40,653 nucleotides of DNA, taken from positions 1-40,653 of the forward strand of contig VBHB01000162.1 in assembly GCA_005880315.1 (NCBI GenBank). The letters are read 5' to 3'. The DNA is from Chloroflexota bacterium. Its GTDB lineage: Bacteria; Chloroflexota; Dormibacteria; Dormibacterales; Dormibacteraceae. The notes under the pieces are model-generated. The model was not told the origin of the DNA. It ran no database searches and saw only the letters and a list, made by a program, of their open reading frames with translations. The position numbers and the translations under genes were made by a program. Shown here in pieces: positions 2,490 to 29,859 of the stretch (position 1 is the first letter of the stretch; each line of letters opens with the position of its first letter).

Positions 2490-2501
2490 GTCGCGAAAAG
2501 A

Positions 2502-3416: not shown

Positions 3417-3450
3417 GCCACCCTCGAACCGGGCCCCGCGGACACGGCGC

Positions 3451-3457
3451 TTATAGT
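3451..3457. promoter_or_regulatory. Shared, near-symmetric -10 element between divergent genes
   Basis: TTATAGT lies in the 48-base gap. On the plus strand, TATAGT (3452-3457) is followed by exactly 7 bases and then the ATG of the phosphotriesterase-family gene, which has no Shine-Dalgarno, so a leaderless transcript is likely. On the minus strand the same bases read ACTATAA (TATAAG hexamer) and could drive the kinase operon with a leader of about 27 bases. No good -35 is seen on either strand. Confidence 0.5.
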
Positions 3458-3464
3458 GCCACCC

Positions 3465-6867: not shown

Positions 6868-6869
6868 CG

Positions 6870-12961: not shown

Positions 12962-13558
12962 ATGGCATACGACCGCAAGCAGGGCCAGCACCAGGTCGCG
13001 CAATCGAGCCGGCCTGATTATCGAGTCGAGGTCGGTCGCGCCGAAGTGCCCGTGGGCGCGTCGCGAACCTTCGTGATCCTCGACCCGGCCCGGGCGGCAA
13101 CCCTGAAAGCCTGGACCGAAACACTGATCCCCGCCGCCGGACGCAGGCCCGATGCAGCAAGCGTCGGCGCCGCGGAATACATCGACGCGACTGTGCACAT
13201 GGTGCCCGCGCTCCGGCCCGCGCTCATCCACGGGATCGATGAGCTGGAGCGACTCGCGGCACAGAAAACCCAAGCGGGCTTCTCGGCCTGCTCCACGGCC
13301 GAACGCGAAGAGCTTCTCCGGCAGTTTCAAGCCGCCGACGACACGGACGCGTTCAGCATGGTCAGCGATTTCACGTATGAGGCTTACTACGGCCACCCAG
13401 ACGTGCTCGCGGCGATGGAAACGGAGAACGGATGGCGCGGCATGGGACCGATCACGGGAGGCGAGATGCCCCCGTTCGACGCATCACTGCTCGGACGCGT
13501 CCGCACGATGCCGCCCCGATATCGCATGGTCGAGACCGAAAGGGGGGCCAAGAGGTGA
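12962..13558 (+). CDS. Gluconate 2-dehydrogenase subunit 3-like protein
   Basis: The 198-residue protein resembles the small subunit 3 (gamma) of membrane-type gluconate/sugar dehydrogenases. It has the typical LDPARAATLKAWTETLIPA segment, with a long helical region ending in a SDFTYEAYYGHPD motif. In known enzymes this subunit chaperones or exports the flavoprotein. No clear Tat signal is visible here (the N-terminus is hydrophilic), so cytoplasmic assembly or a missed start is possible. Its stop overlaps the start of the GMC flavoenzyme as GTGA, matching the usual subunit 3 / flavoprotein order. A cytochrome c subunit, usual in this enzyme type, is not encoded nearby. Confidence 0.8.
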   Translation: MAYDRKQGQHQVAQSSRPDYRVEVGRAEVPVGASRTFVILDPARAATLKAWTETLIPAAGRRPDAASVGAAEYIDATVHMVPALRPALIHGIDELERLAAQKTQAGFSACSTAEREELLRQFQAADDTDAFSMVSDFTYEAYYGHPDVLAAMETENGWRGMGPITGGEMPPFDASLLGRVRTMPPRYRMVETERGAKR

Positions 13559-15160: not shown

Positions 15161-17443
15161 GTGAGCGAGGACCGCCAGGGACAAGACGCCGAGCACGCCT
15201 ACATCGGCCGGCCGATCCGGCGGCGCGAGGATCTGTCCCTGATCACCGGGCAGGGCCGGTATGCGGCCGACATTCGCTTTCCGGACCTCGTGCATGCGGC
15301 CTTCTGCCGCTCGGCGACGCCTCACGGTGTACTTAGGGCGGTCGATCTCGACGCCGCCCGCGCGATGCCGGGCGTCGTCGGCGCCTTCGTGGCGGCCGAT
15401 CTTCCCGAGATCCACGGCGCCATGGCCGACGCCGCCTTCCCCGACATGAACCTCGTCGGCCGTCCGATCCTGGCCCGGGACCGAGTTCGATATGTCGGCG
15501 AGCCGGTGGCTGTGGTCGTGGCGGAAACCGCCTACCAGGCGGCCGATGGGGCGGCCGCCACCGTGATCGACACCGACCCGCTCGAAGCCGCATCCGACGT
15601 TGAATCCGCCGTCAGGCCACACGCGCCTGCGCTCCACCCGCCCGATGAGGGCAATGTCGCCGGCAAGCTGGTGCGTGAGTTCGGCGAGGTTGACGCGGCC
15701 TTCGCCGGCGCTTCCCTGGTCGTACGCAACCGATGCCGGATGGCACGCGTCTCGGGCGGATACCTAGAGCCGCGGGCCTGCTGCGCGGTGTGGGATGCCG
15801 GCAGCAATCACTGGGAGATGTGGACATCGACGCAGTGGGTGCATGGCGTGCGCGACCGGGTGTCCGAGCTGCTTGGGGTGGAACCGAAGTCGATCCGGGT
15901 GAGGGCCGAGAACGTCGGCGGCGGCTTCGGGCCGAAGGGCGCGACCTACCCCGAGGAGGTGCTGGTGGCCGCGCTCGCCCGGCGCCTGCGCCGCCCGGTC
16001 CAGTGGGTCGCCACCCGAAGCGAGGACACCGCGTCGTCGATGCAGGCGCATGGGGACGTAGTCGAGGTCGAGGCGGCCGTCGATGAGGGCGGCCGGCTGC
16101 TCGGCCTCAAAGCGCACCTGCTCCACGACCTCGGCGCGTACGCCGCACCTGGAGCTGCCGTGGTCCTCACGATCACAAACCACATGCTCTCGGCGTATCG
16201 CGTGCCCGCGTATCGCGCAAACATCGACCTCGTCTACACGAACGCCGGCCCCACAGGGTTCATCCGCGGCGGCGGGCGTGAGGTCGGCAACTTCGCGATC
16301 GAGCGGACCATGGACCGGATCGCCGACCGAATCGGTGTCGATGGATTCGAGATAAGGCGTCGCAACATCGTCCGCTCCGAACAGATGCCGTATGCGACCG
16401 GGCTGCCCGGCGTGATCTATGACGGCGGGGACTACGCCGCACTGCTGGAGGGCGTGGCCGCCGCGGTCGAAGGCGAGCGAGGCTCATCGCGATCGCAGGT
16501 CGGCGTCGGTGTCGCGCTGTCGGTGGAAAGGACGGGCATCGGCGCCGGCGAAGAAGCCCGCGTCACGGTCTCGCCCGACGGCACGGCCACCGCACACCTC
16601 GGCTCGACGCCCGGCGGCCAGGGTCACGAGACGACATTTGCCCAGGTCGTGGCGACGTCGCTGGACTGGCCGATCGAAAAGGTGCAGGTGGTGACAGGCG
16701 ACTCCGATGCGCTCCCCCACTCGATGGTGACGGCCGCCAGCCGGTCCGCATTCGAGGTCGGCAATGCTGCGGCGATGGCGGCGGGCGCGGCGCGCAAGCG
16801 GCTGATCGAGATGGGCGCCGAGCGCCTGGAAGCCGATGCCGCCGACGTTGTGCTGAGCATCGGCGGCGTGTTCGTCAAGGGCGCGCCCGGGCGCTCGATT
16901 GCGCTGGATGACCTGCTGCGGGCCGGCCCGCTTCAGGTCAGCGAAACGTTCAAAAGGCCCCCCTCCTACGCCAGCGCCTGCCACGCCGCCGTCGTCGAGG
17001 TCGATGCGGACCTTGGCTCGGTCGAGATCGTGAGATACGTGATCGCGCACGACTCGGGCCGCTCGATCAACCCACTGCTGGTCGATGGCCAGCTCCATGG
17101 AGGATTCGCTCACGGGCTTGGGTACGCGCTCCTGGAAGAGGCGATCTATTCCCCCGACGGAATCTTCATCAGCGACACCTTTCTCGACTACACGATCCCG
17201 AGCCCGCCGGACATCGCGGTCGTTCCCGAGCTGATCAAGGTCTCCTCCGACGGCTTCGACAATCCCGAGGGCTTCAAAGGAGTCGGCGAAAGCGCGACGA
17301 TTCCGGCCCCCGCCGCGATCGCGGCCGCGATCGACGATGTGCTGCGCAAGCTCGGCCGAACCGCAACCATGGACGAGCTCCCGATGACCCCGATGCGCGT
17401 CATCGCGGCGCTCGATAATTTGGACCGTGACCGCACACGCTGA
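15161..17443 (+). CDS. Molybdenum hydroxylase large subunit, without its own partners
   Basis: The 760-residue xanthine-dehydrogenase-family molybdopterin subunit has GRPIRRREDLSLITGQGRY at the N-terminus, GGGFGPKG, the GFIRGGGREVGNF loop, GGQGHETTFAQV and the active-site glutamate E710 in GVGESATIPAP. The loop is not the AYxCSFR of form I CO dehydrogenase. No [2Fe-2S] or FAD subunit lies in this operon, so electrons must leave through partners encoded elsewhere, perhaps those at 23333-24654. GTG at 15161 begins one base after the GMC stop. It is followed by an SDR that overlaps it by 17 bases. Confidence 0.9.
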   Translation: MSEDRQGQDAEHAYIGRPIRRREDLSLITGQGRYAADIRFPDLVHAAFCRSATPHGVLRAVDLDAARAMPGVVGAFVAADLPEIHGAMADAAFPDMNLVGRPILARDRVRYVGEPVAVVVAETAYQAADGAAATVIDTDPLEAASDVESAVRPHAPALHPPDEGNVAGKLVREFGEVDAAFAGASLVVRNRCRMARVSGGYLEPRACCAVWDAGSNHWEMWTSTQWVHGVRDRVSELLGVEPKSIRVRAENVGGGFGPKGATYPEEVLVAALARRLRRPVQWVATRSEDTASSMQAHGDVVEVEAAVDEGGRLLGLKAHLLHDLGAYAAPGAAVVLTITNHMLSAYRVPAYRANIDLVYTNAGPTGFIRGGGREVGNFAIERTMDRIADRIGVDGFEIRRRNIVRSEQMPYATGLPGVIYDGGDYAALLEGVAAAVEGERGSSRSQVGVGVALSVERTGIGAGEEARVTVSPDGTATAHLGSTPGGQGHETTFAQVVATSLDWPIEKVQVVTGDSDALPHSMVTAASRSAFEVGNAAAMAAGAARKRLIEMGAERLEADAADVVLSIGGVFVKGAPGRSIALDDLLRAGPLQVSETFKRPPSYASACHAAVVEVDADLGSVEIVRYVIAHDSGRSINPLLVDGQLHGGFAHGLGYALLEEAIYSPDGIFISDTFLDYTIPSPPDIAVVPELIKVSSDGFDNPEGFKGVGESATIPAPAAIAAAIDDVLRKLGRTATMDELPMTPMRVIAALDNLDRDRTR

Positions 17444-18233
17444 CGCGAAGGCTCAAGACAAGCTCTTCCGCCTGGACGATCGCGTCGCCCTGATCGCGGG
17501 CGGCAGCGGTGCCATCGGTGCGGCGATCGGAGAAGCGCTCGGCCGAGCGGGAGCGTCGGTTGCGATCGCGGGCCGCTCGTCGGAGCGCACCGAGCCGGCC
17601 GCCGCCAGGGTGCGAGAGACCGGCGCCCTTGCCCTGGCGATGGTCGGCGACGTCAACGACCCCATGGAATGCGAACGCCTGGTGGAGGAGACGGTCAACC
17701 GGTTCGGCCGCCTCGATATCGTCGTCAACGCGGTGGGTGGCGGCGCCGGCACGGCGCTCCATCCCGCCGAGCAGTACCCCATGTCGGAGTGGGACCGCAT
17801 CGTCGACCTGAACCTTCGGAGCACGGTGCTGGCGACGCAGGCGGCCGTGAGGGCGATGATCGCCGGCAAGCGCGGGGGGCGGGTTCTCAACATCTCGTCC
17901 GTCCGCGGCCAGCTCGGAATCGACGCGGGTTACTCGGCCTATGTGGCCGCCAAGGGTGCCATCAATTCCCTCACGCGCCAGTGGGCGACGGAATGGGCGA
18001 AGCACGGGATCACGGTCAACGCAATCTCGCCGACATTCGTCGAGACGCCCCAGGTCGCCTCGATGCTGGCCGACCCGGACTTCAAGGCGAGGTTGGTGAG
18101 CCGCATCCCGCTCAAGAGGATCGGGCAGACAGACGACCTGATCGGGGCGGTCCTCCTCTTCTGCTCTGACGCGTCGTCCTTCATCACGGGCCAGATCCTC
18201 ACCATCGACGGGGGGCTGACCGCGACGCAATGA
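17427..18233 (+). CDS. SDR-family oxidoreductase
   Basis: The 268-residue short-chain dehydrogenase shows GGSGAIGAAI (cofactor loop), a Ser in NISSVRGQ and YxxxK in SAYVAAKGA, and the closing GQILTIDGG. The spacing resembles sugar-acid or polyol dehydrogenases such as gluconate 5-dehydrogenase, though this is only a resemblance. GTG at 17427 overlaps the end of the molybdenum subunit gene. Its stop overlaps the next ATG as ATGA. Confidence 0.9.
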   Translation: MTAHADAKAQDKLFRLDDRVALIAGGSGAIGAAIGEALGRAGASVAIAGRSSERTEPAAARVRETGALALAMVGDVNDPMECERLVEETVNRFGRLDIVVNAVGGGAGTALHPAEQYPMSEWDRIVDLNLRSTVLATQAAVRAMIAGKRGGRVLNISSVRGQLGIDAGYSAYVAAKGAINSLTRQWATEWAKHGITVNAISPTFVETPQVASMLADPDFKARLVSRIPLKRIGQTDDLIGAVLLFCSDASSFITGQILTIDGGLTATQ

Positions 18234-19123
18234 CCTCTGCCCGAGCGACCAGCATGGAACAGGTGACCGCCAACGTCTTCACCGACACGACGTTGCGCGG
18301 GTGCAACCCGAGCTTTGTCGTCACCTCGGACGGCGTGGTCGTCATCGACACGCCGCAGCTGCCCACCAAAGCCGTGGCGATGCGCAAGCTCGCCGAGTCG
18401 TACGGAGCCATCCGCTACCTGATCAATACAGAGCACCACGTCGACCACATCTTCGGCAACTATTTCTTCAAAGGCGCGGGCACAGTGGTCCACCACCAGG
18501 GCGTGGACGAGATGTTCATGAAGGTGTTGCCGAACATCGATCCCTACGCGTATGCCGCGGAGGCGATCCCCACCGACGACCCCGAGGGCGCGCTCATATT
18601 CCCAGATCGCGACACGTACTTCCGCGATCCCAATAAAGGCACGATCGTGTTCACCGGCGACGTGACCCTACGGGTCGGCGGGCACACCTTCCACCTCCTC
18701 CACACGCCCGGTCACACGCGTGGGCAGATCGCGGTGCACGTGCCCGAAGAGCGCGTAGTCCTCACGGGCGACACGATCTTTCACGACTGCCAGACGTGGC
18801 TGATGGAATCAGACGTCCCCATGTGGCTCGACGCTCTCGAACGCATCCGGGCGCTCGACGTCGACCATGTGCTCCCTGGACACGGGCCCGTGACGACGAC
18901 GGACTACGTGGCGACCCAGCGCGCGGTGCTGCTCGATTGGGTCAGCGCCGTCGCCGGCGCGATCGCCAAAGGGTGGTCTCGAGAGGAAACGATCGCGCGC
19001 GTGAGCTTCGCCGAGCGTTTTCCGGTCGACATCGGCCAGGGCTACATGATGGATCACATCCAGACGAAGAACGCCGCGTCGCTCTACGACAAGCTGACCG
19101 CCAAGCCGGCGAAAGGCATCTAG
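18230..19123 (+). CDS. Metallo-beta-lactamase-fold hydrolase
   Basis: The 297-residue protein has the MBL zinc signature in a variant form, E68-H-H70-V-D72-H73 in NTEHHVDHIFGN, so the first histidine of HxHxDH is glutamate. The other metal motifs are HTPGHTRGQ, LTGDTIFHD and LPGHGPV. An E-x-H-x-D-H version occurs in a known subgroup of MBL hydrolases. ATG at 18230 overlaps the upstream stop as ATGA, although ATG at 18254 is also possible. It ends the oxidation operon and may open a lactone or thioester. It converges on the dikinase-like gene with both stops sharing CTAG. Confidence 0.85.
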   Translation: MTSARATSMEQVTANVFTDTTLRGCNPSFVVTSDGVVVIDTPQLPTKAVAMRKLAESYGAIRYLINTEHHVDHIFGNYFFKGAGTVVHHQGVDEMFMKVLPNIDPYAYAAEAIPTDDPEGALIFPDRDTYFRDPNKGTIVFTGDVTLRVGGHTFHLLHTPGHTRGQIAVHVPEERVVLTGDTIFHDCQTWLMESDVPMWLDALERIRALDVDHVLPGHGPVTTTDYVATQRAVLLDWVSAVAGAIAKGWSREETIARVSFAERFPVDIGQGYMMDHIQTKNAASLYDKLTAKPAKGI

Positions 19124-21126
19124 GCCCGCCCGGCCGCAGCCTCTTCGCCACGCGTGCGCCCCGCTAGAAGGATCAGCTCTTCATGCAGCTCGAACCACAC
19201 TCCGTGGTAGCTGTCGACTCTTGGCGACGCGACGAAGCGATGATCGCCCCCCCGCGCCGACGCCAGCGCGCGGGCCAGCCTCTCGAGATATCGACCGAGC
19301 CGCCGCGGCGCCTCAGGCATCGACGACATCCACTCCACGACGTCTTCGTGCACCTCCGCGATGCGACGCAGCACGTCCGCGTCGTAGGCGGTGTCGCTGT
19401 GATCGTTGAGGGCCTGCGTGCCACCGTGATCCCGCAGCTGCCACGCGGTCACCGCGTCTTTCATACGCAGGTCGAGCGCGTGGAACCCATCGAGCGCGGC
19501 CTGCGCCCGCGCCTCGCCCCATCGTGCCTGGTCTTCCGCCAGCAGCTCACGACCCTTCTTCTTGCCCTCCATCGTGAGGCGATACGAGCCGTCGTGCAGC
19601 TCAATGAGTCCCCTGTGAGCGAGGTTGCCAGGGGCCAACGCGTCCGGTGAGGCCGTGCCTTTGATCAGCAGGTCTCGGATCACGTCATCCAAAGATGCGG
19701 TTCCAGGCGTCTCGGTGGGGGACGCACGTTCATCGCCATCGGCCCCAGTCTCGATGCCCAGCTCCTGCGCCCACCCGAGCAAGATCGCCGCTTCCGGAGC
19801 GACCGTTGAGTCGTCGGCGACGGGGCCCACGAAGATCTCGCCGGTCCCGCCGTCGATGGTAATGAGCTCGCCCTCCTTCAGGACGTGCCCGCCCACATCG
19901 ATCCAGCCATCGTCCACCCTCAATCCTTCTGTGCCGACCACGGCTGGGATCCCCCACCCGCGCGCCACCACAGCGGCATGGCTGGCCAGGCCGCCGCGGC
20001 TGGTCAGCACGCCGGCGGCACGGGCCAAGCCACGCACGTCGTCGGGAGACGTTTCCGAACGCACCAGGATCACCGGCCGCCCTGCCTCCGCAGCGGCCAC
20101 TGCCCCTTCGGGCGATGTGGCGATCTCGCCTGTGGCCACGCCAGGCGACGCGCCAAGCCCGGTCTCGATCGCGAGCGCATCGCGCGCGGTGCCGGCGGAA
20201 ACCATGGGCGGATGCTCGAGAAGCGCGGCGACCCTCTTGACAGCGTCGGCACGCGACAGCGGGAAGTCAGCCTCCTCCGCCATGTCGACCGCGATCCGAA
20301 GCGCCGCTCGCGGGCTGCGTTTGCCGACCCGCACCTGCAGGAGCCACAGCTTGCCTCGTTCGACGGTGAACTCGATGTCGCAGAGATCGGTGTAATGACG
20401 CTCGAGCGAAGCCGCATGCTGCCTCAGCTCGCGGGCCACTTCGGGAAGCCTTTGCTCGCGAGCGTCGAGCGGCTCGGTCTGATGGCCGCCCGCGACGACG
20501 TCCTCACCCTGCGACGAGAACAGCACATCGCCATAGACGCCCGGCTCGCCGGTGGCCGGGTTTCGCGTGAAGAGCACGCCTGATGCCGAATCCACGCCCA
20601 GGTTTCCAAACACCATGGCCTGCACGGTCACCGCGGTGCCGAGGTCATCCGGGATTCCCTCGCGGCTCCGGTAGGCGCGGGCGCGCTCGCTTTTCCACGA
20701 GCTGAACACAGCCTCCACTCCTTCGCGCAGCTGGCGCCAGGGATCCGGCGGGACGGCGGATGAGCCGACGGTTTTGGTGAACATATCGACCAGGCGGCGA
20801 TGACAGTCCTTGGCGAAGGCAGCGTCGCCCGAGGCTGCGGCGAGCCCGCGCTCGGTTTCGTCATTGAGCCCGACGTTGAGGATCGTGTCCATCATCCCCG
20901 GCATCGAGACGGGCGCCCCGGAACGCACGCTCAGCAGGAGCGGGTTTTGTGGATCACCGAATCGCCGGCCGCCGCGGGATTCGAGCGGGCGCATCGCAGC
21001 GCGCATCTCGTCATCGAGGCCTTGCGGCCAGCCGCGGGAAAGGTAGGCGCGGCATGCGTCGGTGGTGATCGCGAATCGGTCCGCAGGCAGACCGTGCTTG
21101 TGAGCCAGGTCGAAGACGAAACTCAA
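19120..21126 (-). CDS. Compact PPDK-like ATP-grasp plus phosphohistidine protein
   Basis: The roughly 668-residue protein resembles pyruvate phosphate dikinase. It has LSVRSGAPVSMPGMMDTI and GLNDET (ATP-grasp), then QAMVFGNLG, QGEDVVAGG and IEFTVERGKLWLLQVR for nucleotide binding, followed by the phosphohistidine domain TSRGGLASHAAVVARGWG with catalytic H383. Three things are odd. The N-terminal GGKGANLAEM loop is missing, the lid region is shortened, and the PEP/pyruvate TIM barrel is replaced by about 200 residues with no recognised domain. TTG at 21126 overlaps the upstream stop as TTGA; ATG at 21171 is the alternative. It is the last gene of an operon with a three-subunit molybdenum hydroxylase and a second phosphohistidine protein. 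Confidence 0.82.
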   Translation of the reverse strand: MSFVFDLAHKHGLPADRFAITTDACRAYLSRGWPQGLDDEMRAAMRPLESRGGRRFGDPQNPLLLSVRSGAPVSMPGMMDTILNVGLNDETERGLAAASGDAAFAKDCHRRLVDMFTKTVGSSAVPPDPWRQLREGVEAVFSSWKSERARAYRSREGIPDDLGTAVTVQAMVFGNLGVDSASGVLFTRNPATGEPGVYGDVLFSSQGEDVVAGGHQTEPLDAREQRLPEVARELRQHAASLERHYTDLCDIEFTVERGKLWLLQVRVGKRSPRAALRIAVDMAEEADFPLSRADAVKRVAALLEHPPMVSAGTARDALAIETGLGASPGVATGEIATSPEGAVAAAEAGRPVILVRSETSPDDVRGLARAAGVLTSRGGLASHAAVVARGWGIPAVVGTEGLRVDDGWIDVGGHVLKEGELITIDGGTGEIFVGPVADDSTVAPEAAILLGWAQELGIETGADGDERASPTETPGTASLDDVIRDLLIKGTASPDALAPGNLAHRGLIELHDGSYRLTMEGKKKGRELLAEDQARWGEARAQAALDGFHALDLRMKDAVTAWQLRDHGGTQALNDHSDTAYDADVLRRIAEVHEDVVEWMSSMPEAPRRLGRYLERLARALASARGGDHRFVASPRVDSYHGVWFELHEELILLAGRTRGEEAAAGRA

Positions 21127-23336
21127 GAGGTGGGGCCGTCTTTTCCGCGGGACCTCTGGATCTCCGTCCACACCCGCTCTGGCGTGAGGGGAAGGTCGCG
21201 GATCACGACGCCGGTCGCTTCGGTGACCGCAGACGCCACGGCGGGCGCGGTCGCCATCAGCCCACCCTCGCCGGCGCCTTTGGAGCCGTAAGGTCCCGGC
21301 CCGTCGGCGTTCTCGACCGTCATCGAGTGCATCTCGAGAGGAAGATCCTTGGTGGTGGGGATGCGGTAATCGAGCGCGCCGAGGTTCCTGATCCGGCCCG
21401 CGTCGTCAAGGACGATGTGCTCCATCAACGTGTGGCCCAGGCCCATCACGGCAGCGCCCTCGTCCTGCATCGCCACGTGCTGCGGGTTTAGGGCCTTGCC
21501 GACGTCGGCGACCGTGACATGGCGGACGAGAAGGATGTCGCCGGTGCCCTCGTCGACCTCGACCTCGGATGCGCTGCAGCTGAACTCATAGAAAGAGGGG
21601 GCTCCTCCCAGCGGATGGTCGGCCAAGTGCTCGCTGCGTTTGGAGCCGACCCCGATCACCTCTCCCCTGACCTCCCCGAAACGAGCCCGAAGCACTTCGA
21701 CCAGGCTCACCCCTGCTTCGAGTCCCAGCTCGGAGGCCATCTGCTCGAGCTGGGCCTTGATGTCATGGCACGCGTCGGCCACCGCCTGGCCCATGAAGAC
21801 CGTCGAGCGGCTCGCTGAAGTCTGCAGGTCGAACGGGACCGCCGCGGTGTCGCCCATGACGACGCTAACCCATTCGACCGGGATTCCAAGCTCATGAGCG
21901 GCAACCTGCGCCAGCACGGTGCGCGCACCCTGGCCCATGTCAGAGGTGCCCGCCAGCACGGTGGCGCTGCCATCCCAATGCAGCCGGACGATCGAATAAG
22001 AAGCGCCGGTCGTGGCCGATGCCTTGACGGCGACGGCAAGGCCGCGTCCCCGGCCTTTTGCCAACGGGGTGCCCCAGCCGATCGCGTCCGCAGCCTTCCG
22101 CACCGACTCGGCCCAGTCGCCATCGGCCGGTGTGTCGCCAGGAACGAAAGGCTCGCCCTTGCGGGCAAGGTTTCGGAGCCGGATTTCTACCCGGTCGATG
22201 CCTGATCTCCATGCCGCATCGTCGAGCTGAGATTCGTGAGCCCACGAAACCTGCGGGGTGCCAAAGCCCCGAAAAGCGGTGCTCGGAGTGGTGTGTGAGA
22301 AGAGCGCCCTCACCACGACACGCGCGGCCGGGACGCGGTACGGACCGCAGGCAAGGTAGTTGCTCTTGGCGATGACGCGTTCCGCGATGTCGGCATATGC
22401 GCCCATCAGGAAATCGCTCTCGATGTCCTGGAATGAGATCGTGCCGTCGCTCTGGAAACCCGTGCGCGCGCGAATGCGGCACGACGTGCGGCGAACCTCC
22501 TGGAACGTCTCCTCCAGTGTGAGCAGCAGGCGCACCGGGCGGCCTGTCCGCAGCGCGAGGAGCGCGACAAGCGGCTCGTATTTGGGATGTTGCTTGCCAC
22601 CAAAAGCGCCGCCCGGATCCGGAGCCCGCACACGGACCTTCGCGACCGGCAGGCCCAGGACCTGCGCAATGATGCGCTGCATCTGAAACGGGTTCTGGGT
22701 CGGTGTCCACACCACCACACCGTCGTCCTCCGGCGCAGCGATGAACGCATGTGGCTCGATTGCGAAGTGGGTGACCATGGGGAACTCGTAAACGTTGTCG
22801 ACGACGATGTCCGCCTTCGCATGGTCAACATCGCCCCAGCCGAAATGGAGCTCGTTCAGCACGTTGGTGTCGCGCCGTGGGTCGTCGGGTCGAAGGTCAG
22901 GCTCCTGCACCAGCGGGGACTTGGGGTCGAGGGCGGCTTCGATCGAGTACACGCCGGGCAGCACCTCGTGCTCCACTCGAATCAGCTCCGCCGCGGCCTC
23001 TGCCGCTTCTTTGGTTTCCGCCACGACGGCCCCCACCGGCTGGCCGTGGTATTTCGTTGCGCCGATCGCGAGGATCGGCCTGTCGCTGTACACGGGGCCA
23101 AACCGGGGCATCGGGCTGGGCAGGTCGGCGGCGGTGAAGACGCCGACCACGCCGCGGGCGGCCTGGGCAGCGCTCGTGTCGATCGACACGATGCGAGCGT
23201 GGCCGCAGTCGATATGAACGAGCTTCACGTGCAGCATCCGATCCAAGCGGATGTCGGCGATGAACTGTTGATCGCCCGTCACACGGGCGACCCCGCCGCC
23301 GCGCCGCACCGCAGCCCCGATCGGCTCCGTGATCAT
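21123..23336 (-). CDS. Molybdenum hydroxylase large subunit (complete set)
   Basis: The 737-residue xanthine-dehydrogenase-family subunit has GGGVARVTGDQQFIADI near the N-terminus, PGGAFGGKQHPKYEP (cofactor region), the TAFRGFGTPQVSWAHES loop typical of xanthine-type enzymes, SDMGQGARTVLAQVAA and active-site E690 in GAGEGGLM. The absence of AYxCSFR argues against CO dehydrogenase. ATG at 23336 gives an ATGA overlap with the [2Fe-2S] subunit gene. With the two genes upstream it completes a hydroxylase for an aromatic, heterocyclic or aldehyde substrate. Confidence 0.92.
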   Translation of the reverse strand: MITEPIGAAVRRGGGVARVTGDQQFIADIRLDRMLHVKLVHIDCGHARIVSIDTSAAQAARGVVGVFTAADLPSPMPRFGPVYSDRPILAIGATKYHGQPVGAVVAETKEAAEAAAELIRVEHEVLPGVYSIEAALDPKSPLVQEPDLRPDDPRRDTNVLNELHFGWGDVDHAKADIVVDNVYEFPMVTHFAIEPHAFIAAPEDDGVVVWTPTQNPFQMQRIIAQVLGLPVAKVRVRAPDPGGAFGGKQHPKYEPLVALLALRTGRPVRLLLTLEETFQEVRRTSCRIRARTGFQSDGTISFQDIESDFLMGAYADIAERVIAKSNYLACGPYRVPAARVVVRALFSHTTPSTAFRGFGTPQVSWAHESQLDDAAWRSGIDRVEIRLRNLARKGEPFVPGDTPADGDWAESVRKAADAIGWGTPLAKGRGRGLAVAVKASATTGASYSIVRLHWDGSATVLAGTSDMGQGARTVLAQVAAHELGIPVEWVSVVMGDTAAVPFDLQTSASRSTVFMGQAVADACHDIKAQLEQMASELGLEAGVSLVEVLRARFGEVRGEVIGVGSKRSEHLADHPLGGAPSFYEFSCSASEVEVDEGTGDILLVRHVTVADVGKALNPQHVAMQDEGAAVMGLGHTLMEHIVLDDAGRIRNLGALDYRIPTTKDLPLEMHSMTVENADGPGPYGSKGAGEGGLMATAPAVASAVTEATGVVIRDLPLTPERVWTEIQRSRGKDGPTS

Positions 23337-23794
23337 CGGTTCGCCCGCCCGGCCGCGACCACCGCCGCGCAGATCTGCATGTAGCCTCCGCAGCGACACA
23401 GGTTTCCCGAGAGCCCCTCTTTGACCTCGTCAAGTGTGGGATGCGGATTTCGCGCGAGCAAGTGGTGCGCGGCCACGACCTGCCCGGGAATGCAGAATCC
23501 GCACTGCACCGCGCCGGAGGCGAGAAACGCGTCCTGCAGCACGCTTAGCTTTCCACCTGCGGCGAGTCCCTCGATGGTGGTGACCTCGCCGCCATCGGAT
23601 TCGGCCGTGAGCATCAGGCAGGAGTTGACCGCCCGGCCGTCGACCAGCACGGTGCACGCCCCGCATTCGCCGACAGCGCAGCACTCTTTGGTCCCTGTCA
23701 GCCTGAGGCCGTCGCGCAGGAAGTCGAGCAGGGTCATGTTCGCCTCCGTTTCCACGTCGTGCTCGGACCCGTTGACGGTCACGTGGATTCTCAC
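23333..23794 (-). CDS. [2Fe-2S] subunit of molybdenum hydroxylase
   Basis: The 153-residue small subunit carries both clusters of the family. The plant-ferredoxin-type site is C39, C44, C47 and C59 (CCAVGECGAC and NSC). The second is C98, C101, C133 and C135 (CGFC, CRCGGY). It passes electrons from the molybdenum subunit to the FAD subunit. GTG at 23794 follows the FAD gene stop after two bases, so the subunits are made together. Confidence 0.95.
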   Translation of the reverse strand: MRIHVTVNGSEHDVETEANMTLLDFLRDGLRLTGTKECCAVGECGACTVLVDGRAVNSCLMLTAESDGGEVTTIEGLAAGGKLSVLQDAFLASGAVQCGFCIPGQVVAAHHLLARNPHPTLDEVKEGLSGNLCRCGGYMQICAAVVAAGRANR

Positions 23795-23796
23795 GG

Positions 23797-24654
23797 TCAG
23801 GCCGCCCCCAGACGTTCGATCGATGAGAGCAGCGCCCGCCGGCTCATGACAAGGAGCATGGCCTCGCGATATTCGCGGCTCCCGCGCACGTCCGAGATCG
23901 GACTGGCCTGCTCGAGCAGTGCTCGCAACACCGTGCTTTTCGATTCGTCATCTGCCGACGGGTCGGAAAGCGCACCGGTTTCGTCTGCGACCAAGAACGG
24001 TCGCGGACCTACCGCGCCATATGCGAATCGGGTGCTACCACTCGCGTCCACCAGGCAGCACAGGCTCACTGTCGCCAGGTCGACGCCTCGCCTGCGGGTG
24101 ATGCGAACAAACGTGGCGGCGCGCCGTTCCGTGGCGATAGGCAAATCGATCGACGTGACAACCTCTCCCCGCTGAAGCACTGTCTGCCTTGGGCCGACAA
24201 GGAATTCATCGAGCTTCACGCGTCGAGCACCACGCGCGCTCGCCACGTTGACCACCGCGCCGTAGACAAGCAGCGGCGGCGCGGTGTCGGCGGCCGGCGA
24301 TGCGTGGCACATGTTGCCGGCGAGCGTGGCCCGGTTGCGGATCTGGACGGATCCGACGGTGGCCGCTGCATCGACCAATGCCGGAAACCACATCTGGACG
24401 AGCGCGTTCTCCTGTACGTCGGTCATCGCCGTGGTGGCGGTGATCGTCAGCCACCCGCCGCGTTCGCTGATGCCGGGTCGTAGCTCGGCCACTCGCTTCA
24501 GGTCGATCACCACCTTCGGCCTGCGCGAGCGGTTGCGCAGCTCGATGACGAGGTCGGTGCCGCCCGCCAGCAGGCTCGCCTCGTCGCCGTGCTCGTCGAG
24601 CACGGCGAAGGTTTCAGACAGGGTCGCCGGCCGTGCGAACGCAAAAGGCACCAT
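23797..24654 (-). CDS. FAD-binding subunit of molybdenum hydroxylase
   Basis: The 285-residue medium subunit has the FAD_binding_5 motifs SLLAGGTDLVIELRNR and RATLAGNMCHASPAAD, followed by a C-terminal CO-dehydrogenase flavoprotein domain. It accepts electrons from the iron-sulfur subunit and reduces NAD+, O2 or another carrier. It lies 33 bases downstream of the phosphohistidine protein and 2 bases upstream of the small subunit, in the order FAD, [2Fe-2S], Mo. Confidence 0.92.
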   Translation of the reverse strand: MVPFAFARPATLSETFAVLDEHGDEASLLAGGTDLVIELRNRSRRPKVVIDLKRVAELRPGISERGGWLTITATTAMTDVQENALVQMWFPALVDAAATVGSVQIRNRATLAGNMCHASPAADTAPPLLVYGAVVNVASARGARRVKLDEFLVGPRQTVLQRGEVVTSIDLPIATERRAATFVRITRRRGVDLATVSLCCLVDASGSTRFAYGAVGPRPFLVADETGALSDPSADDESKSTVLRALLEQASPISDVRGSREYREAMLLVMSRRALLSSIERLGAA

Positions 24655-24687
24655 CGCGGCCGGCCTCAGACGACCTTGTGTCGCGTC

Positions 24688-26490
24688 TTAGTGAGGTCGC
24701 GCCATTCGGTCTGCAGCCAGCGCGTCGGCAGGTGGCGCTTTGTCGCCGCCGCTCCCGAGAATGTCGACCACCCCAGTCGTGCCGTTGACACGAATGCGGT
24801 CGCCTTCCTTGATCCTCCTGGTCGCCGAAGAGGTGCCGATCACGGCCGGGATCGCGAACTCGCGCGCGAGCACGGCGGCATGCGAGGTGAGGCCGCCCGC
24901 GTCGGTGACGAGACCCGCCATCTTCGTGAAGAGCGCGACCCAGGCCGGGTTCGTCATCTGGCAGACCACGATGTCGCCCTTGCGGACGTGGTCGAACTGC
25001 TCGACCGTCAAAACCACGCGGGCAACGCCCTCGACCACACCGGGAGAACCCCCAAGGCCCTCGATGTGGCTCTCGACTCGGGACGCCTTGCGATAGAACT
25101 TTTCGGGGAAGCCCCAGTTGGCCAGGTATGGCACCGCCAGCTGAGTCGCTGTCACGGTGCCGATCCAGTCCGGCGGACGCAACCGATAGGCGGCCTCACG
25201 CTCGGTGCGTCGCTTGGCGACGAGCTTGCGCGCATCGATCGCGGCAGTGTCCGCCATGAAGACACGCAGCTCGTTGTACTGGAGGTACATCACTTCATCC
25301 GGCCGCTCCAGGGCTCCGCTTTCGACAAGCTTCGCGCCGATCGCCATGAGGACGAGGCGAAGGTGAGCATTGGCGCCCTGGTCGATGTAGAAGTGATGGT
25401 CGGGCGTAAGTGGCGCCATCAGCAGGTTGATGTCGTTCAGGCGCCGCACCTCTTCGAGGCCTTCGCCTGACAGTCCCTCGAGCAGCTCCTCAGTCGCCGA
25501 CTGGATGTCCTTCTCCACCGCCGCGATCGTCTTCGGATAGTCATAACCGGTCTCGACATATCCGCGCACCAGCTCGATCACCGGCTCGGCGTGCTCGCGA
25601 ACGGTTGGAAAGACGAACTCGTGACTCCACACCGCGTGATAGCCGTACTCGCGCTGGTAGGCGGTGACGCGATCCGCCAGGAAACGGCGCCCGCCATCCG
25701 ACTTCTGGAGCGACTGCATGATCTCGCGCGCGGTTTCTCCACGAAACGCCGACGACAGGTCGCGGTCCTTGACGACCTCTTCCTTGAGCTCCCACAGGGC
25801 CTTGATGGAATCCCAGTTGCGATCGCTGGAAGAGTTCTGCAAGCGGCCGACCAGAGTCTCGTCGACGCTGCCGCGCCATCTCTGGATCGCCCCACGCAGG
25901 TTGAGGGTGGCGGAAAACTGCGCGAAGTTGAGCATCCAGTGGATCTTCCAGTGCCGGTCGTGGATGTCGATCGCGTCCTCGAGGATGCAGGCAAGCTCCA
26001 TGAGAGTGAGCCGGTCCGCCTCGTCGAGCCTCGCCTCGAGGTAGTCGTAGTTGCGCGTCATCTCGGGGACGAGGCGGTCGCGCCACCAGCCGGCGAAGTT
26101 CCGGCCGTATGTGGGCAGGACCGCGTCCAGGTACTTGCCGATCGTGGCGGGATAGGCCGGATCGCGCGGCACGGCGGCCGAGTGCCGGAAGCCATATCGG
26201 CTCGAATCGATGAGCAGCTTCGGGTCCGCGGGGATCACTGCCGTATAGACATAGCCGTTGACGAACTTCGCCAGCCAGTCGGCCGCGAACGGCGTCCCGA
26301 AGCGGCGGAACATGTGGTCGCAGGTCAGCCACCAGCCGCCGATGTCCGCGAACATGGGGCTCAGAGGGTTCGGGCAGTGCAGGTCGTCGAACACCCACAG
26401 CAGCTGCTTCTCGGCTTCCGACTCCCAAGTCACCGGGAACTGGTCGTCGCCGAGGAACTGGCCGAGAGGCTCTTCCACCGCCGTCCCCAC
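24688..26490 (-). CDS. PEP-utilising mobile-domain protein (phosphotransferase half)
   Basis: The 600-residue protein lacks an ATP-grasp domain. Its long N-terminal region (WESEAEKQLLWVFDDLHCPNPLSPM onward read in pieces: VTWESEAEKQ, then VFDDLHCPNPLSP) resembles the substrate-binding part of rifampin-phosphotransferase- and phenylphosphate-synthase-like proteins. The C-terminus is a phosphohistidine domain with H537 in GGLTSHAAV and FAIPAVIG. In those families this part moves phosphate from His to a hydroxyl group of the substrate, with ATP used on a separate domain or subunit. GTG at 26490 begins a transcript that may be leaderless. It heads the operon with the molybdenum hydroxylase and the PPDK-like gene. 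The acceptor is unknown. Confidence 0.8.
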   Translation of the reverse strand: MGTAVEEPLGQFLGDDQFPVTWESEAEKQLLWVFDDLHCPNPLSPMFADIGGWWLTCDHMFRRFGTPFAADWLAKFVNGYVYTAVIPADPKLLIDSSRYGFRHSAAVPRDPAYPATIGKYLDAVLPTYGRNFAGWWRDRLVPEMTRNYDYLEARLDEADRLTLMELACILEDAIDIHDRHWKIHWMLNFAQFSATLNLRGAIQRWRGSVDETLVGRLQNSSSDRNWDSIKALWELKEEVVKDRDLSSAFRGETAREIMQSLQKSDGGRRFLADRVTAYQREYGYHAVWSHEFVFPTVREHAEPVIELVRGYVETGYDYPKTIAAVEKDIQSATEELLEGLSGEGLEEVRRLNDINLLMAPLTPDHHFYIDQGANAHLRLVLMAIGAKLVESGALERPDEVMYLQYNELRVFMADTAAIDARKLVAKRRTEREAAYRLRPPDWIGTVTATQLAVPYLANWGFPEKFYRKASRVESHIEGLGGSPGVVEGVARVVLTVEQFDHVRKGDIVVCQMTNPAWVALFTKMAGLVTDAGGLTSHAAVLAREFAIPAVIGTSSATRRIKEGDRIRVNGTTGVVDILGSGGDKAPPADALAADRMARPH

Positions 26491-26498
26491 GAGATCGA

Positions 26499-26530
26499 AT
26501 TATCGCGTCCCGAATGAGGGAGTGGATAAT
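26499..26530. promoter_or_regulatory. Divergent leaderless-type promoter pair
   Basis: Two outward-facing GATAAT hexamers lie between the divergent genes. One is on the minus strand (26504-26499), 8 bases before GTG 26490. The other is on the plus strand (26525-26530), 7 bases before GTG 26538. Neither gene has a Shine-Dalgarno, so both mRNAs may start at the start codon. No consensus -35 is visible. Confidence 0.5.
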
Positions 26531-26537
26531 CGAGCAC

Positions 26538-27638
26538 GTGAGCGCATCTGTACCTCGCGTCTCGTACAAGAGCCCTCTGCATCAGATGACGCAGTCCACT
26601 CCCACCTGTCTGTGGAACGACTCTGCGTCAATCGACGAATTGACGCACTCGATCGAGGACGGCGCGGTTGGCGCGACGTGCAACCCGGTCATTGCGTTCA
26701 CCGTCCTCAAGAAGGAGATGGCGACGTGGCGGCCGCGCATCGAGGCCCTGCTTCGCGAGCAGCCGACCGCCACCGAGGACGAGATCGCCTGGACTCTGGT
26801 CGAGGAGCTGTCGGTCCGCGCAGCGAAGCTGCTCGAGCCAGTCTTCCGACAGCAGGGCGGCCGCAACGGCCGCCTATCCATTCAGACCGACCCTCGGCTC
26901 TTCCGCGACACGGAAGCAATAGTCACGCAGGCGATCCGTTTCAGCCGGCTCGCGCCCAACATGATCGTGAAGATCCCCGCGACGCGCGCTGGGATCGGTG
27001 CGATCGAAGAAGCGACCGCCCGCGGGATCAGCATCAACGCCACGGTCAGCTTCACGGTGCCCCAGACCATCGCCGTCGCGGAAGCTGTCGAGCGAGGCCT
27101 ACGCCGTCGCGAGCAGGAGGGCAAGGAGGTCGCCTCCATGGGGCCCGTCTGCACGATCATGGTCGGCCGGCTGGACGACTGGCTCAAAGTCGTGATGGAG
27201 AAAGAGGGCATCTCGGTCGAGCCCGGCCACCTCGAGTGGGCCGGCGTTGCCGTGTTCAAGAAGGCGTACGAGATCTACACCAAACGCGGGTACCGGCTGC
27301 GGCTCCTTTCGGCCGCCTTCCGCAACCACATGCACTGGAGCGAGCTCATCGGCGCCGACGCCGTCATCTCGCCCCCTTACGCGTGGCAGCAGCGCTTGAA
27401 CAAGAGCGGGATCGAGGTCACATCCCGGATCGCGCAGCCCGTCGATCCAAACATCGTCAACCAGCTCGTGACCCACTTTCCAGATTTCCGCCGGGCGTAT
27501 TCCGAGGACGGCCTGGCCGTAGAGGATTTCGACTCTTATCCGCCCACCCGCCGGACCCTCCGCCAGTTCATCGCCGCGTGCGGCGATCTCGCCGGGCTGG
27601 TGCGCGACGTAATGGTTCCCAACCCCGACCAGGCTTAA
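26538..27638 (+). CDS. Transaldolase-family protein
   Basis: The roughly 366-residue TIM-barrel protein has the transaldolase opening CLWNDSASIDELTHSIEDGA with D28, ATCNP, and Schiff-base lysine K145 in NMIVKIPATRAG. Downstream are NATVSFTVPQ and TIMVGRLDDWLK. It may transfer a dihydroxyacetone unit or perform a simple retro-aldol cleavage. GTG at 26538 is preferred over ATG 26514 because a GATAAT -10 ends 7 bases before it and would cut off the earlier start. The sugar isomerase-like gene follows after 4 bases. Confidence 0.88.
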   Translation: MSASVPRVSYKSPLHQMTQSTPTCLWNDSASIDELTHSIEDGAVGATCNPVIAFTVLKKEMATWRPRIEALLREQPTATEDEIAWTLVEELSVRAAKLLEPVFRQQGGRNGRLSIQTDPRLFRDTEAIVTQAIRFSRLAPNMIVKIPATRAGIGAIEEATARGISINATVSFTVPQTIAVAEAVERGLRRREQEGKEVASMGPVCTIMVGRLDDWLKVVMEKEGISVEPGHLEWAGVAVFKKAYEIYTKRGYRLRLLSAAFRNHMHWSELIGADAVISPPYAWQQRLNKSGIEVTSRIAQPVDPNIVNQLVTHFPDFRRAYSEDGLAVEDFDSYPPTRRTLRQFIAACGDLAGLVRDVMVPNPDQA

Positions 27639-27642: not shown

Positions 27643-28560
27643 GTGAAGCTCGGCCTGCTCACGGCGGCCTTTCCAAGCCTTTCGCTCGAGGAGGTGGCCG
27701 ATTGGGCGGCCACGAACGGATTCGAAGCCCTGGAGGTCGCGTGCTGGCCGGCCGCCGGCGCCGAGCGCAGGCGCTACGCAGGTGTCAGCCACATTGATGT
27801 GGACAGGCTCGACGCCAAAGCCGCTCACGGCATCCACGACCTGCTGTCGAGCCGCGGCCTGACGATCTCGTCGCTCGCCTACTACCCGAATCCGCTGGAC
27901 CCCGATCCGGCCCAGCGTTCGCAGGCCCAGGCGCACATACGCAAGGTCATCGAGGCCGCGGCCACGCTCGAGGTGAACCTGGTCGCCACGTTCATTGGTC
28001 GCGACCAGAGCCGGCCGCCCGAGCCCGCGTTCGCCGAGGTCCTCGAGCAGTGGCCGGCGCTGGTCAAACACGCCGCCGACCGCGGCGTCAGGATCGCGAT
28101 CGAGAACTGCCCCATGATCTTTTCAACCGACGAGTGGCCGGGCGGCCGCAACCTCGCCTATTCGCCTGCGCTGTGGCGGCGCCTTTTCGAAGCCATGCCT
28201 GGTGAGACGCTCGGCCTGAATCTGGACCCGTCGCACCTGGTCTGGCAGCTCATAGACATTCAGCGGGTCGTGCGCGAGTTCGGTCCCCGTATCTACCACG
28301 TCCACGCGAAAGACCTCGAGATCGATCGCGACGGGCTCTACGAAAACGGCGTCATGTCTTTGGGCATGGGCTGGCAGGTTCCCCGCCTGCCAGGTCTCGG
28401 CGAGGTGCAATGGAACCGCTTCATCGCCGCCCTGATCCGAGCTGGGTATGACGGCGTCGTCTCTGTGGAGCATGAGGACCGCTCTTTCGAGGGCGACCTC
28501 GACCTCGTCAAGCGCGGATTCCTGCTCGCGCGCAACACCCTGCGCCCGCTTCTGGTGTGA
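27643..28560 (+). CDS. Sugar-phosphate isomerase/epimerase (xylose-isomerase-like barrel)
   Basis: The 305-residue AP-endonuclease-2-type TIM barrel begins MKLGLLTAAFPSLSLEEVADW. Candidate metal ligands of the family are the Glu of IAIENCP, the Asp and His of GLNLDPSHL, the His of VHAKD and the Glu of VSVEHED. It probably interconverts keto- and aldo-forms or epimers of a sugar or inositol derivative. GTG at 27643 follows the transaldolase-family stop by 4 bases. The transporter promoter lies 21 bases after its end. Confidence 0.87.
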   Translation: MKLGLLTAAFPSLSLEEVADWAATNGFEALEVACWPAAGAERRRYAGVSHIDVDRLDAKAAHGIHDLLSSRGLTISSLAYYPNPLDPDPAQRSQAQAHIRKVIEAAATLEVNLVATFIGRDQSRPPEPAFAEVLEQWPALVKHAADRGVRIAIENCPMIFSTDEWPGGRNLAYSPALWRRLFEAMPGETLGLNLDPSHLVWQLIDIQRVVREFGPRIYHVHAKDLEIDRDGLYENGVMSLGMGWQVPRLPGLGEVQWNRFIAALIRAGYDGVVSVEHEDRSFEGDLDLVKRGFLLARNTLRPLLV

Positions 28561-28580
28561 GTCTCCACCCAGGTGATCGT

Positions 28581-28609
28581 TTGACACCGCCCCAAACCTT
28601 CCTTACGAT
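28581..28609 (+). promoter_or_regulatory. Sigma-70-type promoter of the ABC transporter
   Basis: TTGACA (28581-28586), a 17-base spacer and TACGAT (28604-28609) form the best promoter in the window. Transcription should start near 28616, leaving a leader of about 106 bases before ATG 28722. Confidence 0.8.
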
Positions 28610-28621
28610 CTGCGGCGTCTG

Positions 28622-28635
28622 GGCAAACGATTTCC
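28622..28635. promoter_or_regulatory. Putative LacI-family operator, site 2
   Basis: GGCAAACGATTTCC is a 14-base imperfect palindrome centred on CG (GGNAANCGNTTNCC), about +6 to +19 of the predicted start. It shares ATTTCCATT with site 1 at 11745-11758 and matches it at 11 of 14 positions. It fits repression by the LacI protein encoded at 11771. Confidence 0.6.
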
Positions 28636-28708
28636 ATTGGTCATGCGAGCAGGAGCTTCTAGCCCGGACTCGACCCAGCGGGCGGTGCCTGCGACCGGTT
28701 TGAAAGAC

Positions 28709-28714
28709 AGGAGG
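28709..28714 (+). promoter_or_regulatory. Shine-Dalgarno of the receptor gene
   Basis: AGGAGG lies 7 bases before ATG 28722 and fixes that start for the lipoprotein. Confidence 0.75.
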
Positions 28715-28721
28715 TTGGTAA

Positions 28722-29777
28722 ATGTCGGAACGTAGATGGCCGAAAGCCATCGGATTAGTGCTTGCAGCAGGGTTGTTGCTGGCCGCCTGCGGCGGCTCCA
28801 ACAACACAGGTGGAGGCACCAAGAAATACGTCGTCGGCATCTCCAACACGCTGACCGGCAACGGCTTCCGCGAGGAGATGATCTGTTCCATCAAGGCCCA
28901 GGCCAAGGCGTCTGGAGTCGTCTCCAAGGTTATCGTCGCGAACCGCAACACCGACCCCAGCGGCCAGATCGCTGACGTACGCAACCTGATCTCGGCGGGC
29001 GTCAACGTCATCGTGATGAACCCCTCCGACCGCAGCGCACTGGACGCAGTCATCAAGGAGGCGACGAGCAAGGGCATCGTCGTCGTCACCGTCGACCAGG
29101 GCGTCACCTCGTCGGATGCGTACCAGCTCTACAACAACCAGGTCAAATACGCCACGCTCGGCGCCGATTGGCTGTTCAAGAAGCTGAACGGCACCGGCAA
29201 CGTCATAGAGATGCGCGGCATCAACGGCGTCTCCGCCGACGCCGACCGGCACACCGGGTTCACGCAAACCCTCGCCAGCTACCCGGGCATCAAGGTCGTG
29301 AAGATGACCTTCACGAACTGGTCCCTTGACCCCGCCGCGCAGCAGATCAAGGACATCCTCGGCTCCGGCTTGAAGGTCGACGGAATCTGGACCTCGGGCA
29401 TCGACTCGACCGTCGTCGACGGATACACGACGGCCAAGAAGCCGTATGTGCCAACGATCGGCGCCGACAACGACGCCTTCATCGGTGACCTTATCAACCT
29501 GAAGGCGCAGGGTCTTTCTGGCGCCGCCGTCACCAACCCTCCGACGGTAGGGGGCGCGGGCCTGGCGGTCGGTCTGGACGTCCTCCAGGGCAAGAGCCAC
29601 CCGCACCTGATCAACCTCGACCCAGCCATCTGGGACAACCAGAGCACCTCGGGCTTGAGCGAGCTGCAGAACCACTACGACCCGAAACTCAACGCTTACT
29701 ACAGCGTCACCTACCAGGTCGCCCCGTACACGACCTACACCAAAGACGACCTCCTCAAGTGCGCTGACATCGGTTAG
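28722..29777 (+). CDS. Sugar-binding lipoprotein of a ribose-type ABC transporter
   Basis: The 351-residue receptor starts with a type II signal peptide ending in the lipobox LLAAC (lipidated Cys23), followed by a Gly/Ser/Asn linker. The mature part is a periplasmic-binding type I domain (VVGISNTLTGNGFREEM, NTDPSGQIADVRNL, VVTVDQGV, PTIGADNDAF). It captures a sugar-like solute at the outer membrane face and delivers it to the permeases. It is the first gene after a strong promoter and operator and is separated from the ATPase by a hairpin terminator. That arrangement would give more receptor than transporter. Confidence 0.92.
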   Translation: MSERRWPKAIGLVLAAGLLLAACGGSNNTGGGTKKYVVGISNTLTGNGFREEMICSIKAQAKASGVVSKVIVANRNTDPSGQIADVRNLISAGVNVIVMNPSDRSALDAVIKEATSKGIVVVTVDQGVTSSDAYQLYNNQVKYATLGADWLFKKLNGTGNVIEMRGINGVSADADRHTGFTQTLASYPGIKVVKMTFTNWSLDPAAQQIKDILGSGLKVDGIWTSGIDSTVVDGYTTAKKPYVPTIGADNDAFIGDLINLKAQGLSGAAVTNPPTVGGAGLAVGLDVLQGKSHPHLINLDPAIWDNQSTSGLSELQNHYDPKLNAYYSVTYQVAPYTTYTKDDLLKCADIG

Positions 29778-29800
29778 CTTCGATCGAAGTAAAGACATGG

Positions 29801-29835
29801 CAGGGCGTGGAGGAATCCACGCCCTGTCGCTTTTT
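29801..29835 (+). terminator. Strong intrinsic terminator after the receptor gene
   Basis: An 11-bp perfect stem (CAGGGCGTGGA / TCCACGCCCTG), GGAA loop and a TTTTT run at 29831-29835 lie between receptor and ATPase genes. It should stop part of the transcripts and/or protect the receptor mRNA end. Confidence 0.85.
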
Positions 29836-29859
29836 GGGGGCATCATCTAAATCGTTGCG

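Follow-up and report, generated by a model that had tools for sequence, protein, structure and literature searches.

A minus-strand operon in a 40,653-nucleotide stretch of a Chloroflexota bacterium of the family Dormibacteraceae (assembly GCA_005880315.1, contig VBHB01000162.1; this whole stretch is called the window) probably encodes a two-component small-molecule dikinase and a water-dependent molybdenum (Mo) hydroxylase of the xanthine dehydrogenase (XDH) family that act in one catabolic pathway. Its five genes are, in order, PEPu600, the FAD, [2Fe-2S] (FeS) and Mo subunits of the hydroxylase, and PPDK-like, a compact relative of pyruvate, phosphate dikinase (PPDK) that would serve as the ATP-grasp partner of PEPu600. 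The order was confirmed from the open reading frames and the sequence, and the spacings given by a first-pass annotation of this DNA (33 bases, 2 bases, an ATGA overlap and a TTGA overlap) are exact.

A two-part, phenol-type kinase is encoded beside Mo hydroxylase genes in soil bacteria from several phyla, which suggests an unstudied breakdown pathway. The annotation knew of no described system of this order, and the literature we searched for a pairing of a PEP-utilizing enzyme with a Mo hydroxylase held nothing relevant and no published description. The central idea of the annotation holds up, but not its view of this copy as intact or its claim about the substrate.

PEPu600 and its linkage to a Mo hydroxylase

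According to Pfam and to comparisons with related proteins, PEPu600 combines a substrate-binding helical domain with a swivel domain that carries the catalytic histidine, and has no ATP-grasp in the same chain. The histidine is H537 (codon 24880-24882), invariant in 13 aligned orthologues, and the motif TDAGGLTSH matches the T/SxxGGxxxH motif of the large subunits of two-component dikinases (PMC12167813). The best solved relative by sequence profile is rifampin phosphotransferase (RPH), over residues 235-577. RPH entries are also the sole significant matches of a Foldseek search with the AlphaFold2 (AF2) model of PEPu600 (E 2e-12, about 460 columns). The two proteins share the fold of the substrate and swivel domains; RPH differs in being a single polypeptide with its own ATP-grasp, and in inactivating an antibiotic.

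In the characterised two-component systems HpeHI, CreHI and PpsAB, the large subunit holds the substrate domain and the histidine, and the small subunit is an ATP-grasp protein (PMC12167813). The layout of PEPu600 is that of such a large subunit, and the protein is predicted to work like HpeH, CreH and PpsA, yet it forms a separate clade: those three are mutually about 45% identical (PMC12167813), whereas PEPu600 of the window is 22% identical to CreH of Rhodococcus oxybenzonivorans and other PEPu600 proteins 22-24%.

HpeHI, the hydroxyphenylethanone kinase of Rhodococcus rhodochrous GD02 (PMC12167813, PMC9618137), resembles the window in having no ATP-grasp in its large subunit, a separate ATP-grasp subunit and a place in a catabolic operon. 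The Hpe operon contains a biotin carboxylase where the window has a Mo hydroxylase, and the ATP-grasp partner in the window additionally bears a histidine domain. CreHI of 4-cresol catabolism, with the P450 CreJ, is likewise a two-component phenol kinase encoded beside an oxidising enzyme, and a matching CreHI/CreJ gene set is present in the R. oxybenzonivorans cluster; in that system the oxidation falls to an O2-dependent P450, not to an XDH-family Mo hydroxylase, and an HD-domain protein is encoded nearby. In PpsAB, the ATP-grasp subunit presents ATP, and the beta-phosphate moves to the swivel histidine of the large subunit and from there to phenol (PMC12167813). This phenylphosphate synthase of Thauera and Aromatoleum is our mechanistic model for the window, from which it differs by the carboxylation that follows. 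We know of no Mo hydroxylase operon for PpsAB. The annotation had taken it as the precedent, which is borne out by the domain layout and the catalytic-histidine motif; HpeHI and CreHI belong with it among the closest characterised precedents, and PEPu600, judged by its distance from CreH, lies outside their clade. Hydroxypyridine (hpo-type) clusters, considered as another precedent, were dropped after literature searches gave no match with a dikinase.

The FAD, FeS and Mo subunits are contiguous and have the domains expected of the XDH family by Pfam and layout. Among solved structures, the best match to the Mo subunit is the alpha subunit of 4-hydroxybenzoyl-CoA reductase (4-HBCR), at 309 bits. 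No named equivalog could be assigned among XdhA, 4-HBCR, CO dehydrogenase and the others, all NCBIfam scores being below their cut-offs (the best, XdhA, reaches 424 of 780).

A phylum sample of 301 genomes was searched for PEPu600 orthologues. A clear orthologue group occurs in 25 of them, at 47-70% identity; other full-length relatives are about 31% identical or less. A scan of GTDB contigs found 80 PEPu600 loci in Chloroflexota, Thermomicrobiota, Dormibacterota, Actinomycetota and Paracoccaceae/Roseobacteraceae, that of Thermomicrobium roseum being on its megaplasmid. For the 53 loci with at least 7 kb downstream, we counted a Mo subunit as linked when it lay on the same strand within 9.5 kb: an XDH-family Mo subunit accompanies PEPu600 in 46, and 3 of the remaining 7 have one nearby. 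The pairing is therefore real, and the joint conservation of phosphotransferase and hydroxylase genes, on which the annotation had staked its reading, extends across phyla. The association is also beyond chance, since the same components recur jointly across many genomes and this 3.25-Mb genome has only 7 XDH-type Mo subunits.

The neighbourhoods of related loci were established by tblastn. Type A (Chloroflexota and some Actinomycetota) reads PEPu600, GntR, X295, FAD, FeS, Mo, cyclase and ADH, with the PPDK-like gene at the locus or elsewhere in the genome. Type B (Thermogemmatispora and many Actinomycetota) reads PEPu600, GntR, cyclase, stand-alone PPDK_N, FAD, Mo, FeS and FAA hydrolase; type C (the T. 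roseum group) reads FAD, FeS, Mo, PEPu600, FAA hydrolase, ABM-domain protein, DUF4202, PPDK_N and cyclase. The reduced order, in which the annotation saw the hydroxylase genes bracketed by two phosphotransferase genes, is found in the window and in its congeners G305 and G301, and in a few other genomes either in this form or with a GntR gene added. The operon of most relatives contains additional genes; the bare five-gene order is a local, derived form.

Genes that recur at these loci encode the cyclase (PF04199), FAA hydrolase, ABM-domain protein, SDR, metallo-beta-lactamase-fold (MBL) hydrolase, a transaldolase-like protein and GntR; BKACE, an aldehyde dehydrogenase, a CoxG-like protein, a histidine phosphatase and amino-acid-type ABC transporters are neighbours at single loci. 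At L057:9798-19674 (G126:C2, Thermomicrobium-like), a CreH-clade kinase (42% identical to CreH) and a stand-alone PPDK_N lie beside FAD, FeS and a Mo subunit of the type of Mo2, the second Mo subunit of the window. This is a second, separate pairing of a kinase with a Mo hydroxylase.

The putative ATP-grasp partner and a deletion in its window copy

A gene for an ATP-grasp protein is found near PEPu600 in two forms that exclude each other. Among 92 distinct loci, 29 have a stand-alone PPDK_N, 28 have PPDK-like and none has both. The same holds across whole genomes: of 28 genomes assigned to the PPDK-like/X295 type, 26 contain PPDK-like, and none of the 21 PPDK_N-type genomes does, the search matching there at most the conserved core of ordinary PPDK. 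In the reverse direction, orthologues of the stand-alone PPDK_N were found in 7 of 7 PPDK_N-type genomes, and no clear one among 30 other genomes, which gave two weaker matches in longer open frames. All 13 genomes of the phylum sample with a close PPDK-like orthologue fall among the 25 PEPu600 genomes. From this mutual exclusion, PPDK-like is most likely a functional replacement of the small ATP-binding subunit.

Partners seem to have been exchanged more than once. On the PEPu600 tree the PPDK_N label needs 4 changes, versus 25 in shuffles, counts that are inflated by shared ancestry. In G303, of the same genus, a Mo subunit 78% identical to that of the window lies beside a PPDK_N-type kinase module, and the PEPu600 of that genome comes from a separate clade.

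PPDK-like consists of an ATP-grasp, a swivel histidine domain (histidine codon 19978-19980) and a C-terminal domain of about 220 aa. It passes the cut-off of NF004531/PRK05878 (470.1 bits against 456), a family of 534 positions named pyruvate, phosphate dikinase. VadK and the truncated PPDKs of this family likewise have PPDK_N and a swivel histidine with no PEP/pyruvate barrel. VadK, of about 490 aa, is without a C-terminal 220-aa domain of this kind, and we know of no linkage of VadK to a PEPu600.

X295, the accessory protein of type A, is a conserved 295-aa P-loop protein that belongs to no Pfam family (for example L033:6105-6989, minus strand). By sequence it is weakly like HPr kinase (HPrK) and PEPCK, with the P-loop GGESNHGKS. 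Its AF2 model has a predicted local distance difference test (pLDDT) score of 84, and the best fold match is PEPCK, at low template modelling (TM) scores of 0.4-0.47; X295 is possibly a new small kinase family. It never shares a locus with PPDK_N (0 cases in the 92 loci). As an obligatory kinase partner it was rejected because 7 PPDK-like-type genomes, including that of the window (G000), have PEPu600 and PPDK-like without it.

These two proteins allow another assignment, in which PPDK-like is a regulatory histidine kinase and PEPu600 is supplied with phosphate by another source, such as X295 or a housekeeping dikinase. VadK (Rv1127c), itself a PPDK without PEP barrel, autophosphorylates its histidine and has been reported to regulate the methylcitrate cycle (PMC13400623); PPDK-like scores above the cut-off of NF004531/PRK05878, which its name and length mark as a truncated-PPDK family, and has a swivel histidine of its own. 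X295, for its part, has a PEPCK/HPrK kinase fold in its model and adjoins FAD or PEPu600 in most loci of its type. We find this assignment quite improbable: PPDK-like takes the place of the stand-alone ATP-grasp subunit across genomes, its close orthologues in the phylum sample are confined to PEPu600 genomes, and the genomes that lack X295 retain both PEPu600 and PPDK-like.

The annotation was right that PEPu600 has no ATP-grasp and PPDK-like no PEP barrel, as Pfam confirms; the ATP-grasp of the window copy is, however, incomplete. Its PPDK_N match begins at profile position 75, and the GGKAANL loop, kept in every intact relative inspected including G305 and G301, is lost to a 78-bp in-frame deletion. 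The window copy thus lacks the intact ATP site of the VadK/truncated PPDK group that its relatives have. In G305 a CCCGCGG repeat flanks both ends of the lost segment, which suggests that the deletion arose by slippage. The lysine of GGK in PPDK binds the ATP phosphates; the ATP-grasp of the window protein, as read from this assembly, is therefore probably impaired.

A frameshift or mis-called start as the cause of the missing loop was rejected, the frame and flanks aligning with G305 and G301 around one clean 78-bp gap; an in-frame GTG at 21171 is an alternative start that would give 683 aa. A C-terminal gap of 13 aa was rejected as a second window-specific defect because G305 has the same gap.

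The ratios of nonsynonymous to synonymous substitution rates (dN/dS) against G305 are 0.17 for PPDK-like, 0.16 for FAD, 0.22 for FeS, 0.16 for Mo2 and 0.10 for PEPu600. Since PPDK-like is similar to FAD, FeS and Mo2, the loss would be recent, a variant or an assembly matter, and an old pseudogene is unsupported. A wider decay of the system in this genome, with X295, regulator, cyclase and ATP-grasp loop lost and the kinase non-functional, is possible but doubtful. The deletion is private to the window, G000 has neither X295 nor a stand-alone PPDK_N (no PPDK_N gene beyond ordinary PPDK was found in this assembly, which is 92% complete), and PPDK-like is the least conserved of the measured operon genes (80.5% identity to G305; Mo is at 89% by tblastn). 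On the other hand, all frames are open, deletions are in frame and dN/dS stays at about 0.1-0.2 across the measured operon genes; relatives whose GGK loop is intact also have no X295, and the deletion may reflect a minority variant or the assembly. The assembled copy may, in sum, be impaired through its ATP-grasp loop.

Proposed pathway and alternatives

In the pathway we propose, an organic substrate that bears a hydroxyl or enol group would be bound in the helical domain of PEPu600, a protein that would also carry the phosphohistidine swivel. The ATP would come from a separate ATP-grasp protein. In most Actinomycetota, Thermogemmatispora and Thermomicrobium-type loci this would be a stand-alone PPDK_N; in the clade of the window it would be the compact PPDK-like protein. 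The ATP-grasp protein would phosphorylate a swivel histidine, and PEPu600 would hand the phosphate to the substrate. The Mo enzyme would then hydroxylate the phosphorylated compound or a closely related product, which cyclase, FAA-hydrolase, SDR and MBL-type enzymes would afterwards open and process. The recurrent neighbours would suit a catabolic route in which a ring compound undergoes hydrolytic opening.

Sequence comparison provides the domain make-up, the conserved catalytic histidine, the conserved linkage and the mutually exclusive ATP-grasp partners; we infer the phosphoryl acceptor, the order of steps, the substrate class and a direct contact between PPDK-like and PEPu600. The annotation had gone further, with an inert aromatic or heterocycle as the possible substrate and with the phosphorylated molecule as the one that the Mo enzyme hydroxylates. 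Neither claim is supported.

Several observations weigh against a dikinase and a Mo hydroxylase in one pathway with PPDK-like as partner. The AF2 model of PEPu600, on which the fold match rests, is of low confidence (mean pLDDT 64). Proteins of the CreH clade are just 22-25% identical to PEPu600, so that their phenol specificity is not transferable to it. The associated downstream genes differ among lineages, and two of the 28 genomes, G336 and G339, have no detected PPDK-like gene. The window copy is without its GGK loop despite its low dN/dS, and the swivel histidine of PPDK-like is superfluous for a simple ATP-grasp subunit.

The steps could also run in reverse, the Mo enzyme hydroxylating first and the kinase phosphorylating the new hydroxyl to turn it into a leaving group, an order known from the anaerobic degradation of sterol side chains. 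The established pathway of Sterolibacterium (PMC7411048) likewise joins ATP-dependent phosphorylation and Mo-dependent hydroxylation, and places an ATP-dependent dehydration via a phosphorylated intermediate between two Mo-dependent hydroxylases. The two different Mo subunits of the window are in line with such an order. Yet the sterol Mo enzymes and kinase belong, as far as we know, to other enzyme families. The known relatives of the PEPu600 type of kinase, HpeHI, CreHI and PpsAB, moreover start their pathways (PMC12167813), and we regard the reversed order as unlikely.

Slightly less likely still, the kinase and the Mo enzyme would act on unrelated intermediates and share regulation only, with the Mo enzyme working, for instance, as an aldehyde oxidase on a side product. 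The XDH family includes aldehyde oxidases, and the Mo, FAD and FeS subunits of PPDK_N-type loci are mostly about 26-52% identical to those of the window, so substrates may differ. Against this stand the tight operon and the repeated re-pairing, including the one at L057 between a CreH-clade kinase and a Mo2-type enzyme.

Phosphorylation ahead of hydroxylation, the order we prefer, can be extended to a widespread and undescribed strategy, which we put forward only tentatively: a distinct dikinase clade would tag the substrate with phosphate, an XDH-family Mo enzyme would hydroxylate it without O2 activation, and one lineage would have swapped the small ATP-grasp subunit for a self-phosphorylating compact PPDK, with a possible histidine-to-histidine phosphorelay to a metabolite. 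Two-component dikinases that start catabolism, at the expense of ATP, have been characterised just recently. Because a clade of these kinases is fixed next to a Mo hydroxylase across several phyla, it becomes directly testable whether phosphate serves to direct or activate water-based hydroxylation; cultured carriers include Thermomicrobium roseum, Thermogemmatispora, Nocardioides pini and Phytoactinopolyspora. The compact PPDK clade, labelled pyruvate, phosphate dikinase in databases despite having no PEP/pyruvate barrel, would also gain a likely biochemical role.

Surrounding genes

The operon and the genes that flank it are listed in Table 1. Mo2 sits between the GMC oxidoreductase and the SDR with no FAD or FeS partner gene adjoining, and may use the small subunits of the five-gene operon.

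Table 1. Operon genes, flanking genes and the deletion junction in the window.
Feature	Positions	Strand	Basis and remarks
GMC-family oxidoreductase	13432-15159	+	Pfam; kept in G305 and G301
Second Mo subunit (Mo2)	15161-17443	+	Pfam; kept in G305
SDR oxidoreductase	17427-18233	+	Pfam; recurs at related loci
Metallo-beta-lactamase-fold (MBL) hydrolase	18230-19123	+	Pfam Lactamase_B; 66-94% identical copies at many related loci
PPDK-like, TTG start, 668 aa	19120-21126	-	Pfam PPDK_N and PEP-utilizers, without PEP barrel
Junction of the 78-bp in-frame deletion removing LLALVGGKAANLAVMAGELELPVPAG	21078/21079	-	Protein and DNA alignment with G305 and G301
Molybdopterin-binding catalytic Mo subunit, starts at the ATGA overlap	21123-23336	-	Pfam Ald_Xan_dh_C, MoCoBD_1, MoCoBD_2
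[2Fe-2S] subunit, Mo hydroxylase	23333-23794	-	Pfam Fer2 and Fer2_2
FAD-binding subunit, Mo hydroxylase	23797-24654	-	Pfam FAD_binding_5 and CO_deh_flav_C
PEPu600, 600 aa	24688-26490	-	Pfam PEP-utilizers only, residues 503-573; no PPDK_N
Transaldolase-like gene, divergent from the operon	26514-27638	+	46-91% identical copies at many related loci

The gene divergent from the operon is one that we take to be transaldolase-like by eye from its translation, a label that no family search has confirmed. It is followed (27643-33382, plus strand) by a gene read by eye as a sugar-phosphate isomerase/epimerase, an equally unconfirmed label, and then by a sugar-type ABC transporter. Together with the GMC oxidase, the latter two could point to a glycoside substrate.

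At two related loci (L137:17852-18535 and L142:8933-9622), a gene of the histidine phosphatase superfamily near the operon is a candidate remover of the phosphate tag. UPF0261 (Tm-1-like) and/or PEP_hydrolase-family genes lie shortly upstream of PEPu600 or of the cluster at L118:8586-9962, L122:6736-8812 and L148:6490-8593. Elsewhere in the window, a DUF993 protein (587 bits) adjoins a CoA-transferase family III gene (5701-8066, minus strand), and a 716-aa protein (2262-4409, plus strand) has a phosphotriesterase domain confined to its C-terminal part (residues 415-709), its N-terminal 400 residues having no Pfam match.

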